Below are positions 6,908 to 47,834 of a stretch of DNA of 64,000 bases, piece after piece (the stretch's first letter is position 1; the number at the start of each line of letters is the position of its first letter). The stretch is from Flavobacteriales bacterium. GTDB taxonomy: Bacteria; Bacteroidota; Bacteroidia; Flavobacteriales_E; Vicingaceae. The notes beneath the pieces were generated by a model that did no database searches, was not told the origin of the DNA, and worked only from the letters and a program-made list of their open reading frames with translations. A program made the translations under genes and the position numbers. The stretch spans positions 1 through 64,000 of the forward strand of contig JAJCYO010000075.1 in NCBI GenBank assembly GCA_029262875.1, written 5' to 3'.

Positions 6908-7858
6908 TTAAGCTCCTTTTAGTTTGTTTACTGCTTCAACTAATTTTGGAACAACTTCAAAAGCATCACCAACTATACCATAATCAGCAGCTTTAAAGAA
7001 TGGTGCTTCGGGATCGGTATTGATTACGACAATCACCTTACTCCCATTAACTCCAGCTAAATGCTGTATTGCTCCAGAAATACCTGCTGCAATGTATAAA
7101 TTTGGTCTAATGGCTATTCCAGTTTGTCCAACGTGCTCGTGGTGAGGACGCCAACCAATATCAGCAACAGGACGAGAACAAGCTGTTGCCGCTCCTAATG
7201 CTTTTGCTAAATCTTCAATCATTCCCCAGTTTTCTGGTCCTTTTAGACCTCTACCAGCAGAAACAACAACATCTGCTTCTGTTAAGGATAATTCTGTTGA
7301 TTCTTTTTTAATTTCTTTTACGGTTATTCCAGTACTTGGCAACTCCACTGAAAATGCTTCAACAGCTGCACTTCCTCCAGGGGTTACTTTATCTACTGAA
7401 TTTGGCAATACCGAAATAATTTTTGTTGCTGTCGTAATTTCTACTTCAGCAAATGCTTTTCCTGAAAAAACTGCTTTCTTCACTACATTTCCATTTGGCA
7501 ATGCAACTGCTCCACTTACCAATCCTGCATCTAATTTAGCTGATAGACGAGGTGCAACTGATTTTCCTGAATAATCATGTGCAAAAACAATGGTATCTGC
7601 TCCAGCTTCACCTGCTGCCTGAGCAACAACATGAGCTACTTTTTGAGGATCAAAATTATCTAAGCTTGCATCTGCAACGTGCATTACTTTTGATACTCCA
7701 TAATTTCCTAATTCTTCTAAGCCTGAGGCTGAACCTGCTACAACAGCAATGGCATCTGTACCGGCTGCTTGAGCCAATTGTGCACCATAATTTGCTGCTT
7801 CCAAAGCATTTTTAGTTAACGCTCCATTAGATGAATCTGCATATATTAAAACTGACAT
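6908..7858 (-). CDS. etfA: Electron transfer flavoprotein alpha subunit
   Basis: A 316-residue EtfA, the FAD-carrying subunit that takes electrons from acyl-CoA and related dehydrogenases and passes them to the quinone pool through ETF:quinone oxidoreductase. The N-terminal domain begins MSVLIYADSSNGALTKNALE. The C-terminal FAD-binding region shows VVSAGRGLKGPENW, GAATACSRPVADIGWRP, VGQTGIAIRPNLYIAAGISG and VVINTDPEAPFFKAADYGIVGD, all family signatures. Length is normal. It follows etfB by 23 nt in one transcript that ends in the hairpin at 6861-6886. Confidence 0.97.
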   Translation of the reverse strand: MSVLIYADSSNGALTKNALEAANYGAQLAQAAGTDAIAVVAGSASGLEELGNYGVSKVMHVADASLDNFDPQKVAHVVAQAAGEAGADTIVFAHDYSGKSVAPRLSAKLDAGLVSGAVALPNGNVVKKAVFSGKAFAEVEITTATKIISVLPNSVDKVTPGGSAAVEAFSVELPSTGITVKEIKKESTELSLTEADVVVSAGRGLKGPENWGMIEDLAKALGAATACSRPVADIGWRPHHEHVGQTGIAIRPNLYIAAGISGAIQHLAGVNGSKVIVVINTDPEAPFFKAADYGIVGDAFEVVPKLVEAVNKLKGA

Positions 7859-7881
7859 TTTTCTTTTTTTTAAGTGTTAAA

Positions 7882-8622
7882 CTAAATGGCTTTCGCTTCG
7901 TTGTGTAATAAATCAACCAATTCTTGTACATTATCTGCATCAACGTATCTGCAACCAGACTTTGCTGGAGGCAATGCAAATCCTTTTACCGATGTTGAAG
8001 CACTTGCTTCAGAAGCCGGAACAACATTTAACGGCTTACTTCTTGCCGCCATAATTCCTCTCATGTTTGGAATACGAGCCTCTGCCATTCCTTTGGCTGC
8101 ACTCAGTACAAATGGTGTATTTACTTCAATCACTTCTACTCCACCCTCTATCTCTCTTTCTATTGTAGCGGTGTTTCCGTTCATGTCTAATTTAGACGCT
8201 AACGAAACATACGGAGCATTCATCAATTCTGCCACCATACCTCCTATCTGTGAACCATTGTAATCGATTGTTTCCTTACCTGAAAGAATCATGTCATACC
8301 CTTGCTCTTTTGCATAATTGGCAATTTGTTTCGCTACGTATAAGGCATCTGTAGTTGCTGCATCAATTCTTACGGCATCATCTGCGCCAATGGCTAATGC
8401 TTTTCTAATGATTGGATCACTATCTGCTTCTCCAACGTTAAGAACAGTTACTGTTCCTCCATTGGCTTCTTTTAACTCTAAGCCTCTAACTAACGCATAC
8501 CATTCATCGTAAGGATTCACAATAAACTGCACGCCATTTTCATCAAACTTGGTATCGCCATCAGTAAATGCAATTTTAGCAGTAGTATCGGGAGCCTTAC
8601 TTATACATACTAATATCTTCAT
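7882..8622 (-). CDS. etfB: Electron transfer flavoprotein beta subunit
   Basis: A 246-residue EtfB, partner of EtfA; the subunit carries AMP. Signatures are MKILVCISKAPDTTAKI at the N-terminus, the VNPYDEWYALVRGLELKE segment, LSGKETIDYNGSQIGGMVAE and the C-terminal IPNMRGIMAARSKPLNVV recognition-loop region. It is the first gene of the etfBA pair. The upstream gap (8623-8784) holds a weak TAATTTCG element on the minus strand near 8665-8672 that could be its -7 box; the -33 element is not clear. Confidence 0.97.
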   Translation of the reverse strand: MKILVCISKAPDTTAKIAFTDGDTKFDENGVQFIVNPYDEWYALVRGLELKEANGGTVTVLNVGEADSDPIIRKALAIGADDAVRIDAATTDALYVAKQIANYAKEQGYDMILSGKETIDYNGSQIGGMVAELMNAPYVSLASKLDMNGNTATIEREIEGGVEVIEVNTPFVLSAAKGMAEARIPNMRGIMAARSKPLNVVPASEASASTSVKGFALPPAKSGCRYVDADNVQELVDLLHNEAKAI

Positions 8623-8784
8623 TATCTCTATATTAAATGTTGTAATTAATTATCGTTTTCGCCAACGAAATTAACAATAATACAGCGAATAAAAAATATG
8701 ATTTTGCTCAATAACGAAGAGTTTTGAACAAAGCACTCAACAAAATTTTAAACGGATTTAAATTCTTATCTTAAAACCAATGTT

Positions 8785-9000
8785 TTAGTTCCATCTCACT
8801 TGTTCAGATGGGCATTTTACTTCGCCATACTGACAATTTACACAACATTCATCTTCGTTTGCCTGAATTATTTCGTTACACGTTTCACATTCGTAAATAC
8901 GTGAGCTTTCCAAGGCTAACATTTCTACATTTTGATGTGCCCCACATTCCGGGCAAGTCAATTTGTTTTTATAAAGTACTTCTAAAACTAAATCATTCAT
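8785..9000 (-). CDS. Small zinc-ribbon protein of the GDCCVxCSYG type
   Basis: A 71-residue protein dense in cysteine: a CPECG pair near residue 16, a CETC pair near 38, then DECCVNCQYGEVKCPSEQ. The last stretch resembles the conserved GDCCVxCSYGxxxCPPIQ tail of a small uncharacterised family. The N-terminal CxxC pairs probably form a zinc ribbon. In this copy the usual Gly-Asp becomes Asp-Glu and the terminal PIQ becomes SEQ followed by VRWN, so it is a divergent member. It stands alone between etfBA and a lipoprotein gene. Function is unknown. Confidence 0.75.
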   Translation of the reverse strand: MNDLVLEVLYKNKLTCPECGAHQNVEMLALESSRIYECETCNEIIQANEDECCVNCQYGEVKCPSEQVRWN

Positions 9001-42609: not shown

Positions 42610-43170
42610 ATAGCTAAAAGATTTTCACATAGAGGGAGGCGTAGATTCGTTAAAAAGGAAGACCCTCACAAAATAAACGAAAGAATATTCGCTAAAGAAG
42701 TTCGTGTAATCGCTGAAGGTGTTGAGCCTGATGTATATTCTATTGAACAAGCTTTAAAGTTTGCAGAAGAGCAAGAATTAGATTTAGTTGAAATTTCGCC
42801 AAATGCTAAACCTCCTGTTTGTAAGATAATTGATTATAAGAAGTTTCTTTACGATCAAAAAAAGAAACAAAAAGAGATTAAAGCTAAAGCTCAAAAAATT
42901 GTATTGAAAGAAATACGCTTTGGGCCGAATACAGACGATCATGATTTTGAATTTAAAACAAAACATGCTCGTAAGTTTATAGAAGAAGGTGCTAAGGTAA
43001 AAGCATTTGTTTTCTTTAAAGGTAGAACAATCATCTTTAAAGATAGAGGGCAAATACTTTTGTTAAAGTTAGCGCAAGAGTTGGAAGACATTGCAACAGT
43101 AGAAGCTTTACCAAAAATGGATGGTAAAAGAATGTTTATGTATCTGACTCCGAAAAAGAAAAATAAGTAA
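42610..43170 (+). CDS. infC: Translation initiation factor IF-3 with AUA start codon
   Basis: An 186-residue IF-3. No ATG, GTG or TTG occurs in frame between the in-frame stop at 42595 and codon 42904, which is well inside the conserved protein. The frame before that codes for [36 protein letters not shown] and [20 protein letters not shown], a complete IF-3 N-terminal domain. The codon before AKRF is ATA at 42610, matching the expected N-terminal Met-Ala-x-Arg. The C-terminal domain ([30 protein letters not shown]) is normal. IF-3 rejects non-standard start codons, and E. coli infC uses AUU for autoregulation; an AUA start would do the same here. Confidence 0.93.
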
Positions 43171-43192
43171 TAAATTAAATAAATTATATAGT

Positions 43193-43387
43193 ATGCCAAA
43201 AATGAAAACCGGCTCCAGTGCAAAAAAGAGATTCCGATTAACTGGGACGGGAAAAATTAAAAGGAAACATGCTTTTAAAAGTCACATCTTAACTAAGAAA
43301 ACGACTAAACAAAAGCGTAATTTAACCAAGTCTGGTCTAGTTGCAAAAGTAGATGAGAAAAGTATAAAATTACAATTAGGGATATAA
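43193..43387 (+). CDS. rpmI: 50S ribosomal protein L35
   Basis: A 64-residue ribosomal protein of the large subunit. The N-terminus [20 protein letters not shown] and [20 protein letters not shown] are the standard L35 pattern, very basic throughout. It starts 22 nt after infC and precedes rplT by 109 nt. Confidence 0.97.
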
Positions 43388-44916: not shown

Positions 44917-44949
44917 AAAATGTTAACATAACAATGTCCTAAAAAGCCA

Positions 44950-44980
44950 CTCGTTTCACTTAAAACCCAAAAGAAACGAG
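44950..44980 (+). promoter_or_regulatory. Inverted repeat just before the BchE-like gene
   Basis: CTCGTTTC (44950-44957) and GAAACGAG (44973-44980) pair around a 15-nt loop and end 1 nt before ATG 44982. A hairpin here would bury the ribosome-binding region, or the DNA could be an operator. The loop is too long to be a good terminator. Confidence 0.4.
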
Positions 44981-44981
44981 C

Positions 44982-46436
44982 ATGAAAATTCTACTAATAA
45001 ACCCACCCCACAAATCAATTGGAAGTCGCTTACCGAGAGAACATTTACCTCCATTAGGATTGCTTTCTATAGGCGGTCCTTTAATTGACAACAACTATGA
45101 AGTACAACTATTGGATGCGGACTTCAGTAATTTAAAACATGAATCTATTGTCGAAAAAACAATCGAATTCAACCCCAACATTGTTTTGTTAGGCCATTCA
45201 GGGTCAACATCGGCCCAACCCATCATTAATGACATCACTCTATTAATTAAAAAAGAAAACCCAGCAATAAAAATTATAATCGGAGGAGTATTCCCCACTT
45301 ACCATTGGAAGGAAATAATAGAAACTAATGATCAAATTGATTATATCGTCTGTGGGGAGGGTGAGCAAATTACCTTAGACTTACTGCATGGATTAGAGGA
45401 GCATTTAGACATAGCTACTGTTAAGGGCATTGCTTATCGGAAAGACGGAGTTGCTATGAAAACAAAAACAGCAAACATTATTTCAAACCTCGATGATTAT
45501 CGAGTTGGATGGGAGCTAATGGGTGATTATCATTATACCTATTGGGGTAAAAAGAAAGCCGTAGTTATACAATTTTCAAGAGGATGCCCCTACCCTTGCA
45601 GCTATTGCGGTCAAAACCTGTTCTGGAAAAAATTTCGAAACAAAGATCCTCAACGTTTAGCAGATGAGCTTGAAATGTTACACCATAAATATGGAATTGA
45701 GGTCATTAATTTTGCGGATGAAAATCCTTCTTCAAACAAAAGAGAATGGAAAACCTTTTTAGAAGCGTTAATCGCTAAAAACTTAAACCTAATTCTTGTT
45801 GGCTCCATAAGAGCAGACAACATTGTAAGAGATGCTGACCACTTACACTTGTACAAAGAAGCAGGGTTTGAAAGGTTTTTATTGGGGATAGAAAACTATG
45901 ATGAAGTCATTTTGGAAAAGATAAAAAAAGCTGGTTCGATCACTAAAGACAGGGAAGCCATTCAACTACTAAGGAAACATAATATTCTTTCTATGGCCAC
46001 TTATGTTGTTGGTTTTGGTGAAGAAAAAACAAGAGACTTTTACAACAGTTACAAGCAATTGATATCCTATGATCCTGACCAGGTTCAATTGCTTTACGTT
46101 ACCCCTCATAAATGGACCCCTTATTTTGATGAAGTAAAAGATAAAAGGATAGTCCAACTCGATCAAACAAAATGGGATTACAAGCATCAAATATTAGAGA
46201 CAAAAAATCTTAATCCATGGAAAGTAATCCTGTATGTGAAATTGATTGAATTATTAATGCAGGCAAGACCGAAAGCAATTTCACGCTGGCTATTCCATAA
46301 AGACAAACGGCTTAGAAAAGCAATGTTCTGGTATAACAATATCGGAAAACGTGTATGGTTTTATGAGTGGTTCCAGTTTTTCTTCAACGATAAACTTACA
46401 ACCAAACCAATCAAAATAGATACGTTTTGGAAATGA
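44982..46436 (+). CDS. bchE: BchE-like cobalamin-binding radical SAM protein
   Basis: A 484-residue class B-type radical SAM protein. Residues 1-150 form a B12-binding Rossmann domain (ILLINPPHKSIGSRLPREH, LLGHSGSTSAQP, IIIGGVFPTYHW). The 4Fe-4S motif is CPYPCSYC (C202, C206, C209) inside QFSRGCPYPCSYCGQNLFW; further SAM-barrel segments include NFADENPSSNKREW and ERFLLGIENYDE. The C-terminal 110 residues (DQTKWDYKHQILETK, KLIELLMQARPKAISR, MFWYNNIGKRVWFYE) are specific to BchE, the anaerobic Mg-protoporphyrin monomethyl ester cyclase. No other pigment genes are here, so the reaction in this organism is uncertain. It stands alone behind the adenine deaminase gene. Confidence 0.8.
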   Translation: MKILLINPPHKSIGSRLPREHLPPLGLLSIGGPLIDNNYEVQLLDADFSNLKHESIVEKTIEFNPNIVLLGHSGSTSAQPIINDITLLIKKENPAIKIIIGGVFPTYHWKEIIETNDQIDYIVCGEGEQITLDLLHGLEEHLDIATVKGIAYRKDGVAMKTKTANIISNLDDYRVGWELMGDYHYTYWGKKKAVVIQFSRGCPYPCSYCGQNLFWKKFRNKDPQRLADELEMLHHKYGIEVINFADENPSSNKREWKTFLEALIAKNLNLILVGSIRADNIVRDADHLHLYKEAGFERFLLGIENYDEVILEKIKKAGSITKDREAIQLLRKHNILSMATYVVGFGEEKTRDFYNSYKQLISYDPDQVQLLYVTPHKWTPYFDEVKDKRIVQLDQTKWDYKHQILETKNLNPWKVILYVKLIELLMQARPKAISRWLFHKDKRLRKAMFWYNNIGKRVWFYEWFQFFFNDKLTTKPIKIDTFWK

Positions 46437-46439
46437 CCG

Positions 46440-47834
46440 CTACTCCTTTATAAACTTCTTTGTAACCACACTTCCATTGCTTTGGGTAATGGAAAAAGTA
46501 TAAAATCCTGAAGATATATCTGCTATTCCAATACTCGTTTGTGCTTTTGTTAGCTGTCCCTTCTTTACCATTTTACCGCTAAGGTCAATTATAGCATATG
46601 CTACAGCTTTTTCAAAAAGTGTAGTTGTAACGGTAATTTGATTACTCGCTGGGTTTGGATAAACGATAAATGCCAATTCGTTCTTTACTCCAAAATCAGC
46701 AACACTATTGGGAAATGATGTATCAAAAACAAACAATCCTTCTTGCATATCAGAAGCTAATATTTTACCCGAAGGTAAGAACGGATAAACACCCCAATTC
46801 CCTTCATACTTATTATCCTGATGAGGACGTGTAGAAGTATCATAATATCCTGCCAAGCTAATGTTATTAATGTCCGAAGTGTTAAAAACATACAGACCAT
46901 CAAAATAATAACTCACGTATAAGAAATCATTTTTAAATATAAGGTTATGAGGAATAGATAGGGTATCGACCACATTGGAACCAATGGTATCAATCACATT
47001 TATATTCGACAAATTGCTCACATCTAATATTTTAACCCTTAACCCATGGTTTTCATCTGCTAAAGCGTAATGATCTCCACTATCGTCTAACCAACCAGAA
47101 TGATTATACCCTTGGTGCAGGTAAGTTGTTATTGAACCTAAACCTTGTACTGAAAGTAAATTAGAAAAATCCACCACAAACAAACCATTAGGACCAGCAT
47201 TACAATAAGCAGTATCATTTCTAACATAAATATCATGCAAATATCCAATATTAGCATTCCAAAATGGAACACCTAATTCGCAATTCAGTAAAAATTGAGG
47301 GTTGGTTGGATCAGGGTTCAATGCATATATTGACAACTGGTTAGGACCAAAATCAGTAACACCACCACAAGTGTATAAATAACCAGAAGTTGTATCTATA
47401 AATATGTTATGTGATTTTACGATAAAATTATCATCGTCATAAACCAAAGGCGCAGAATCCGGTAAAAATGATAAATCCGCTATTTGCAATGAACTTGCCC
47501 CTTCATCAGCAACAATGTATAAGTAATCTTGGTAGGTGTCATAATCTCTATGTATTATTTGCCCCCCTTGTACTCTACCCGCAATAAAATCAACGGTATC
47601 TACATTGTTTACATCAGTAATGTCAAAGATATGTGTTCCTGCCGTTGAACCAATAATAGCATATTCTCTACCATTATTAGCATATCCCCAAATCTCGTTA
47701 TAAGTATTGTCATGAGCGAATGAGGCTGGTAACGTATTGTCTTGCCATTGGTAAACTAAATTCATGTTAAGACTTGTCTGAGCTTTTAAACCGATGGCAA
47801 AAAATGATAAGATAATGATTAAGCTAAACCTCAT
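46440..47834 (-). CDS. LVIVD-repeat (choice-of-anchor B) protein with T9SS type A sorting domain
   Basis: A 464-residue secreted protein with signal peptide ending GLKAQ. Residues 25-375 are LVIVD-type propeller repeats in the choice-of-anchor B pattern (REYAIIGSTAGTHIFDITD, YLYIVADEGASSLQIADLS, SHNIFIDTTSGYLYTCGG, HDIYVRNDTAYC, PHNLIFKNDFLYVSYYFDGL). The last 75 residues are a T9SS type A domain (AFIVYPNPASNQITVTTTL, DISSGFYTFSI, VVTKKFIKE). Function is unknown; location should be surface or extracellular. It is convergent with the BchE-like gene, 3 nt apart. Confidence 0.88.
   Translation of the reverse strand: MRFSLIIILSFFAIGLKAQTSLNMNLVYQWQDNTLPASFAHDNTYNEIWGYANNGREYAIIGSTAGTHIFDITDVNNVDTVDFIAGRVQGGQIIHRDYDTYQDYLYIVADEGASSLQIADLSFLPDSAPLVYDDDNFIVKSHNIFIDTTSGYLYTCGGVTDFGPNQLSIYALNPDPTNPQFLLNCELGVPFWNANIGYLHDIYVRNDTAYCNAGPNGLFVVDFSNLLSVQGLGSITTYLHQGYNHSGWLDDSGDHYALADENHGLRVKILDVSNLSNINVIDTIGSNVVDTLSIPHNLIFKNDFLYVSYYFDGLYVFNTSDINNISLAGYYDTSTRPHQDNKYEGNWGVYPFLPSGKILASDMQEGLFVFDTSFPNSVADFGVKNELAFIVYPNPASNQITVTTTLFEKAVAYAIIDLSGKMVKKGQLTKAQTSIGIADISSGFYTFSITQSNGSVVTKKFIKE

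Follow-up and report, generated by a model that had tools for sequence, protein, structure and literature searches.

A putative cobalamin-dependent radical SAM enzyme from a clade apart from photosynthetic BchE in a member of the Flavobacteriales

BchE, the Mg-protoporphyrin monomethyl ester cyclase, is a ring-forming, non-methylating case among cobalamin-dependent radical SAM enzymes, and has recently been reconstituted in vitro (PMC13142503, PMC13331322). According to a review, deletion of three candidate BchE homologues in Synechocystis gave no cyclase phenotype, and these genes are apparently not orthologues (PMC4500134). Here we describe a BchE-like gene from a Flavobacteriales bacterium (GenBank assembly GCA_029262875.1, contig JAJCYO010000075.1, positions 1 to 64,000; this whole 64,000-nucleotide stretch is referred to as the window). 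The description of TIGR02026, the NCBIfam model for BchE, presumably already refers to a second clade, in which non-photosynthetic bacteria occur. In view of that description and of the Synechocystis deletions, it is therefore not new that BchE has relatives outside chlorophyll synthesis; what is new here are the operon partners, the empty insertion site and the gap in TIGR02026 scores. We put the probability at roughly 70% that the gene product is a radical SAM enzyme that depends on cobalamin and belongs to a second clade of the BchE family, one not concerned with chlorophyll, and that the gene was acquired horizontally on its own.

The preliminary description placed the feature at 44950-46436. 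The open reading frame is real and intact, but it starts at 44982, position 44950 being the start of an inverted repeat. The features of the locus are as follows.

44982..46436, + strand: BchE-like, predicted cobalamin-dependent radical SAM enzyme of 484 amino acids, in a clade apart from photosynthetic BchE (open reading frame, TIGR02026, tree, AlphaFold2 model)
45045..45374, + strand: N-terminal B12-binding (Rossmann) domain, PF02310, residues about 22-131 (Pfam)
45567..46025, + strand: radical SAM domain, PF04055, residues 196-348, with CPYPCSYC giving C202, C206 and C209 (Pfam, alignment)
46173..46433, + strand: clade-specific C-terminal segment with WDYKHQ at 398-403, QxRPxA at 427-432, W450-Y451 and GxRVWF at 455-460 (alignment, model)
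44950..44980, + strand: perfect 8-bp inverted repeat (arms 44950-44957 and 44973-44980, loop of 15 nt), the right arm of which stops 1 nt short of the ATG
44917..46439, no strand: single-gene inserted segment between add and the homologue of the gene at 46440-47834 (-) (comparison with five congeners)

The protein matched TIGR02026 from end to end and scored 503.7 bits, where this NCBI equivalog model has its cut-off at 481.35 bits; the second-best NCBIfam family was PhpK, with 123 bits. PF02310 is followed by PF04055 with a CxxxCxxC motif, the arrangement by which cobalamin-dependent radical SAM enzymes are recognised. An AlphaFold2 model built from 35 clade sequences had a mean pLDDT of 88.3, and its best solved structural matches were AprD4, MgmA, CysS, OxsB, TsrM and TokK (Z 23-30, top 29.7, over about 390-440 residues), indicating the fold of solved members of this enzyme group. 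The C-terminal segment is mostly helical in the model. Confidence was low near residues 11-20 and 301-320, though both stretches are rich in conserved residues, and they may face the substrate. AprD4, the best structural match, is known to lack cobalamin, so a shared fold is no proof that the window protein binds it. Residues G101, G102, T106 and the GEGE at 125-128 are common to the window protein and BchE. The host genome has seven B12-domain matches above cut-off, the window gene among them, and some of the others can be read as MetH and methylmalonyl-CoA mutase, which makes cobalamin use plausible. By analogy with the family, the window enzyme probably uses cobalamin.

The likeness to BchE noted in the preliminary description thus extends over the whole protein at the level of the profile, but identity to BchE of photosynthesis gene clusters is only about 25-30%. 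Scores on TIGR02026 were bimodal, the clade giving 483-588 bits and BchE 756-847 bits, and mean identity in the alignment was 60% inside the clade, 64% inside BchE and 29% across the two. A phylogeny with BchE had been proposed as a check on the original identification, and its outcome went against it: in a maximum-likelihood tree of 58 sequences, in which the bootstrap had not fully settled, 49 clade members and 8 BchE were split by branches of 100/100 support, and the window protein lay outside the clade of BchE encoded in photosynthesis gene clusters. Matches of the protein to plasmids by tblastn also fell into two groups. One, at about 52% identity, comprised plasmids of Allocoleopsis and Sphingobium; the other, at 27-29%, included bchE among bchH, bchB, bchL, bchM, bchJ, chlG or puh (Roseinatronobacter, Thiodictyon) and bchE adjoining bchJ in Skermanella.

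The two groups also differ in their motifs. The N-terminal loop reads PNYxSGGAEIAGxWPP in the BchE group and PPHxxIGSRxxxEHLPP in the window protein and its relatives, and the C-terminal YNFVTPI of BchE is replaced by WDYKHQ; both motifs of gene-cluster BchE are absent from the window protein. The segments KWDYKHQ, QARPKAISR and GKRVWFYE, formerly taken as typical of BchE, are specific to the other clade. Of the two motifs cited for the B12 and radical SAM domains, PPHKSIGSRLPREH and CPYPCSYC are both present, but PPHKSIGSRLPREH is no BchE signature. About 58 invariant columns, including the CxxxCxxC and GEGE positions, are common to the clade and BchE. A third BchE-like lineage was seen as a Chlorobia paralogue (L024; G206, 7512-8951 -), which scored 367 bits on TIGR02026 and is about 30% identical both to the clade and to BchE; a normal BchE is found elsewhere in G206.

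The clade gene occurs without BchE in 46 of 48 clade genomes; Rhodobium orientis and one Myxococcales bin carry both. In the latter, bin-1538, the two genes lie about 5 kb apart on contig CAIWFK010000802 (L072/L158), which also reads as bearing bchC and a BchL/BchX-like gene. This was the sole proximity to a photosynthesis cluster seen.

The host assembly is 3.94 Mb long, with an estimated completeness of 100%. It gave 0 matches to PF02514 (BchH/CobN), 0 to PF00124 (reaction centre) and none above cut-off to TIGR01281 (BchL). Two weak TIGR01281 matches span just 33-43 positions and fall far under the cut-off; 14 of 14 control genomes also match this model at or below it. In these searches pigment genes were found neither near the window gene, as had been noted before, nor elsewhere, and a photosynthesis cluster at another site, one of the two explanations offered at the outset, is ruled out as far as the assembly allows. 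Judged by its gene content, the host appears unable to make chlorophyll by the known route.

These results bear on whether the gene could be a genuine BchE retained by a former or cryptic phototroph. The pass on TIGR02026 and the positions shared with BchE would fit such an origin; the pass, like the neighbouring bchE on the Myxococcales contig, also speaks against the reading as a non-chlorophyll enzyme. An origin as genuine BchE is countered by the separate clade, the lower scores, the replaced signatures in the N-terminal loop and at the C-terminus, the lack of Mg-chelatase H, BchL and a reaction centre in the host, and the presence of the clade gene beside true BchE in two genomes. This explanation is strongly disfavoured and has in our estimate very little chance of being right. 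We conclude that the window enzyme is not BchE and that its substrate is most probably other than Mg-protoporphyrin ester. The second of the original explanations, action on another substrate, is supported by the 100/100 separation, by the co-occurrence in two genomes and by the different operon partners described below.

In five congeners the corresponding site is empty, with about 10-30 bp from add to the convergent homologue of 46440-47834 (-). The window junction differs by one extra gene, a clean insertion. None of 45 other genomes of the host family contains the clade gene, and within the class it was found in 8 of 395 genomes, the host included, the other seven copies being 62-72% identical. 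The comparison of genomes suggests that the window gene was acquired horizontally as a single gene. Its G+C content (36%) is near that of its flanks (35%), so the transfer was not recent or the donor was of similar composition. Among the matches listed, the nearest relatives are from a Planctomycetota MAG (75% identity) and a MAG labelled Heimdallarchaeota (73%). Two observations concern neighbouring genes. Congeners G016 and G020 (L121, L124) carry a tandem duplicate of the homologue of 46440-47834 (-). At 42784-43230 (+) of the window, the infC frame extends well upstream of the first ATG, GTG or TTG in the list of open reading frames; translation may therefore begin at a non-standard codon, which is the usual case for IF-3.

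At least 577 relatives were confirmed by tblastn in a scan of GTDB contigs. Clade members, 52-75% identical to the window protein among the matches listed, are scattered over many phyla, and copies also occur on the Allocoleopsis and Sphingobium plasmids. The same bacterial-looking, sigma-factor-like gene adjoins the clade gene in Heimdallarchaeota/Asgard MAGs (L035, L036) and in a Planctomycetota MAG (L031), reflecting either mis-binning or recent transfer. One copy (L023; G489, 7481-8937 -) is broken into two open reading frames by a frameshift near residue 368, through either decay or assembly error.

Gene neighbourhoods were compared for 80 of the at least 577 relatives, and partners are counted over 90 loci. 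Of the 90 loci, 31 (10 of the 24 from Bacteroidota and 21 from Alphaproteobacteria) have a winged-helix regulator of PF13601 upstream of the enzyme gene and in the same orientation, one ArsR-type regulator cluster that had merged with this cluster having been set apart by eye and motif. The regulators of the two phyla are 36% identical (E 5e-21). In both phyla the regulator is preceded by a membrane protein of about 210 amino acids, and these proteins too are related (hhalign E 2.8e-5, probability 74%). A cis-prenyltransferase (NF011412, PF01255) lies directly upstream of the enzyme in about 21 alphaproteobacterial (Rhizobiales) loci, although the Bradyrhizobium copies are near-duplicates and locus counts overstate independence. 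Neighbours in Bacteroidota include DUF4184, which overlaps a Zn phospholipase C profile and recurs beside the gene on a cyanobacterial plasmid, together with a prokaryotic DAG kinase, a Coq4-like protein, DUF1361, DUF2809, DUF4153 and CreD; a 165-aa membrane protein is common to Chloroflexota loci as well. Several partner junctions show 4-bp overlaps or gaps of 0-10 bp. The window gene itself has no conserved neighbours, many other loci are likewise without PF13601 or lipid partners, and the PF13601, CreD and DUF4153 modules may be common in genomes without the clade gene too.

The 8-bp inverted repeat pointed out previously is real, and the leader containing it folds at -9.9 kcal/mol (z -3.06). 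Across the window, perfect 8-bp arm pairs have a density of about 0.8 per kb, and those rich in G+C are rarer. No matching hairpin was found at the ATG in the leaders of 17 relatives, and it was therefore rejected as a family feature; it could affect start-codon access in the host genome only. Control by a cobalamin riboswitch was also rejected. No Rfam match up to E=1 was obtained in 40-50 kb of the window, in agreement with the preliminary description, and none was recognised as a cobalamin riboswitch at 8 other clade loci; nor was one recognised at the Roseibium loci L091 and L097. The sole riboswitch in that 8-locus check was an unrelated SAH riboswitch (L066).

From what is known of the family, a [4Fe-4S] cluster on C202, C206 and C209 would cleave SAM, and the resulting 5'-deoxyadenosyl radical would abstract a hydrogen atom bound to an unactivated carbon of the substrate. 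The cobalamin, seated in the Rossmann domain at the N-terminus, might then give a methyl group or, alternatively, capture the substrate radical, leading to a ring or an oxidised product; both types of reaction are proposed by analogy. The recurring operon partners suggest that the substrate is found in membranes or is an isoprenoid. The likeliest class is thus a lipid of isoprenoid or polyprenyl type associated with the membrane, a tentative assignment drawn from gene neighbourhood. We found nothing in the literature on an isoprenoid link.

Two other kinds of substrate were considered. Another tetrapyrrole (a heme precursor, coproporphyrin or corrinoid) is suggested by the nearest characterised relative, a porphyrin enzyme, and by two Roseibium loci (L091, L097) in which the clade gene reads as lying inside an apparent cobalamin biosynthesis cluster (CobB, CobM/CbiG-like). 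Outside Roseibium, however, no heme or corrinoid partner gene recurs, the 8 loci checked have no cobalamin riboswitch and the host is without CobN/BchH, so that we consider a tetrapyrrole unlikely. It also seems improbable that the enzyme methylates or cyclises a secondary metabolite or a peptide. The patchy distribution, the plasmid copies and the matches to models for HpnR, PhpK and RiPP methylases would suit such a role, but those matches are weak, all scoring far under cut-off (HpnR 112 against 650), and the genes that recur near the enzyme included no recognised precursor peptide, NRPS or PKS.

The gene is on hundreds of genome contigs, mostly of non-phototrophs, and where it is annotated it bears the name bchE, by which surveys of phototrophy are misled. 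The family looks mobile, and in several phyla its members are found repeatedly next to regulators, membrane-lipid genes and a cis-prenyltransferase. Such partners offer a concrete clue, open to experiment, to a new modification that depends on B12 and whose target may be an isoprenoid lipid. A more speculative proposal, which we would not yet bet on, is that this widespread and mobile, bchE-labelled clade forms a new class of B12/radical SAM enzymes. In aerobic bacteria these would methylate or cyclise a membrane lipid of isoprenoid or polyprenyl type, with a dedicated winged-helix regulator controlling them.

Among described systems, the window protein resembles BchE in the order of its B12-binding and radical SAM domains, the CxxxCxxC motif, the roughly 58 invariant positions and the full-length profile match. 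It differs in belonging to another clade at about 25-30% identity, in lying outside any photosynthesis gene cluster, and in having PPHxxIGSR for PNYxSGGAE and WDYKHQ for YNFVTP. Synechocystis slr0905, sll1242 and slr0309, likened here by published description, are comparable as candidate BchE homologues without an MPE-cyclase phenotype (PMC4500134). HpnR, the hopanoid C-3 methylase (TIGR04367), shares the cobalamin radical SAM architecture and is among the next-best NCBIfam matches, but the window protein scores 112.2 bits against a cut-off of 650. AprD4, MgmA, CysS, OxsB, TsrM and TokK have the same overall fold as the model, with 14-20% identity and different substrates.
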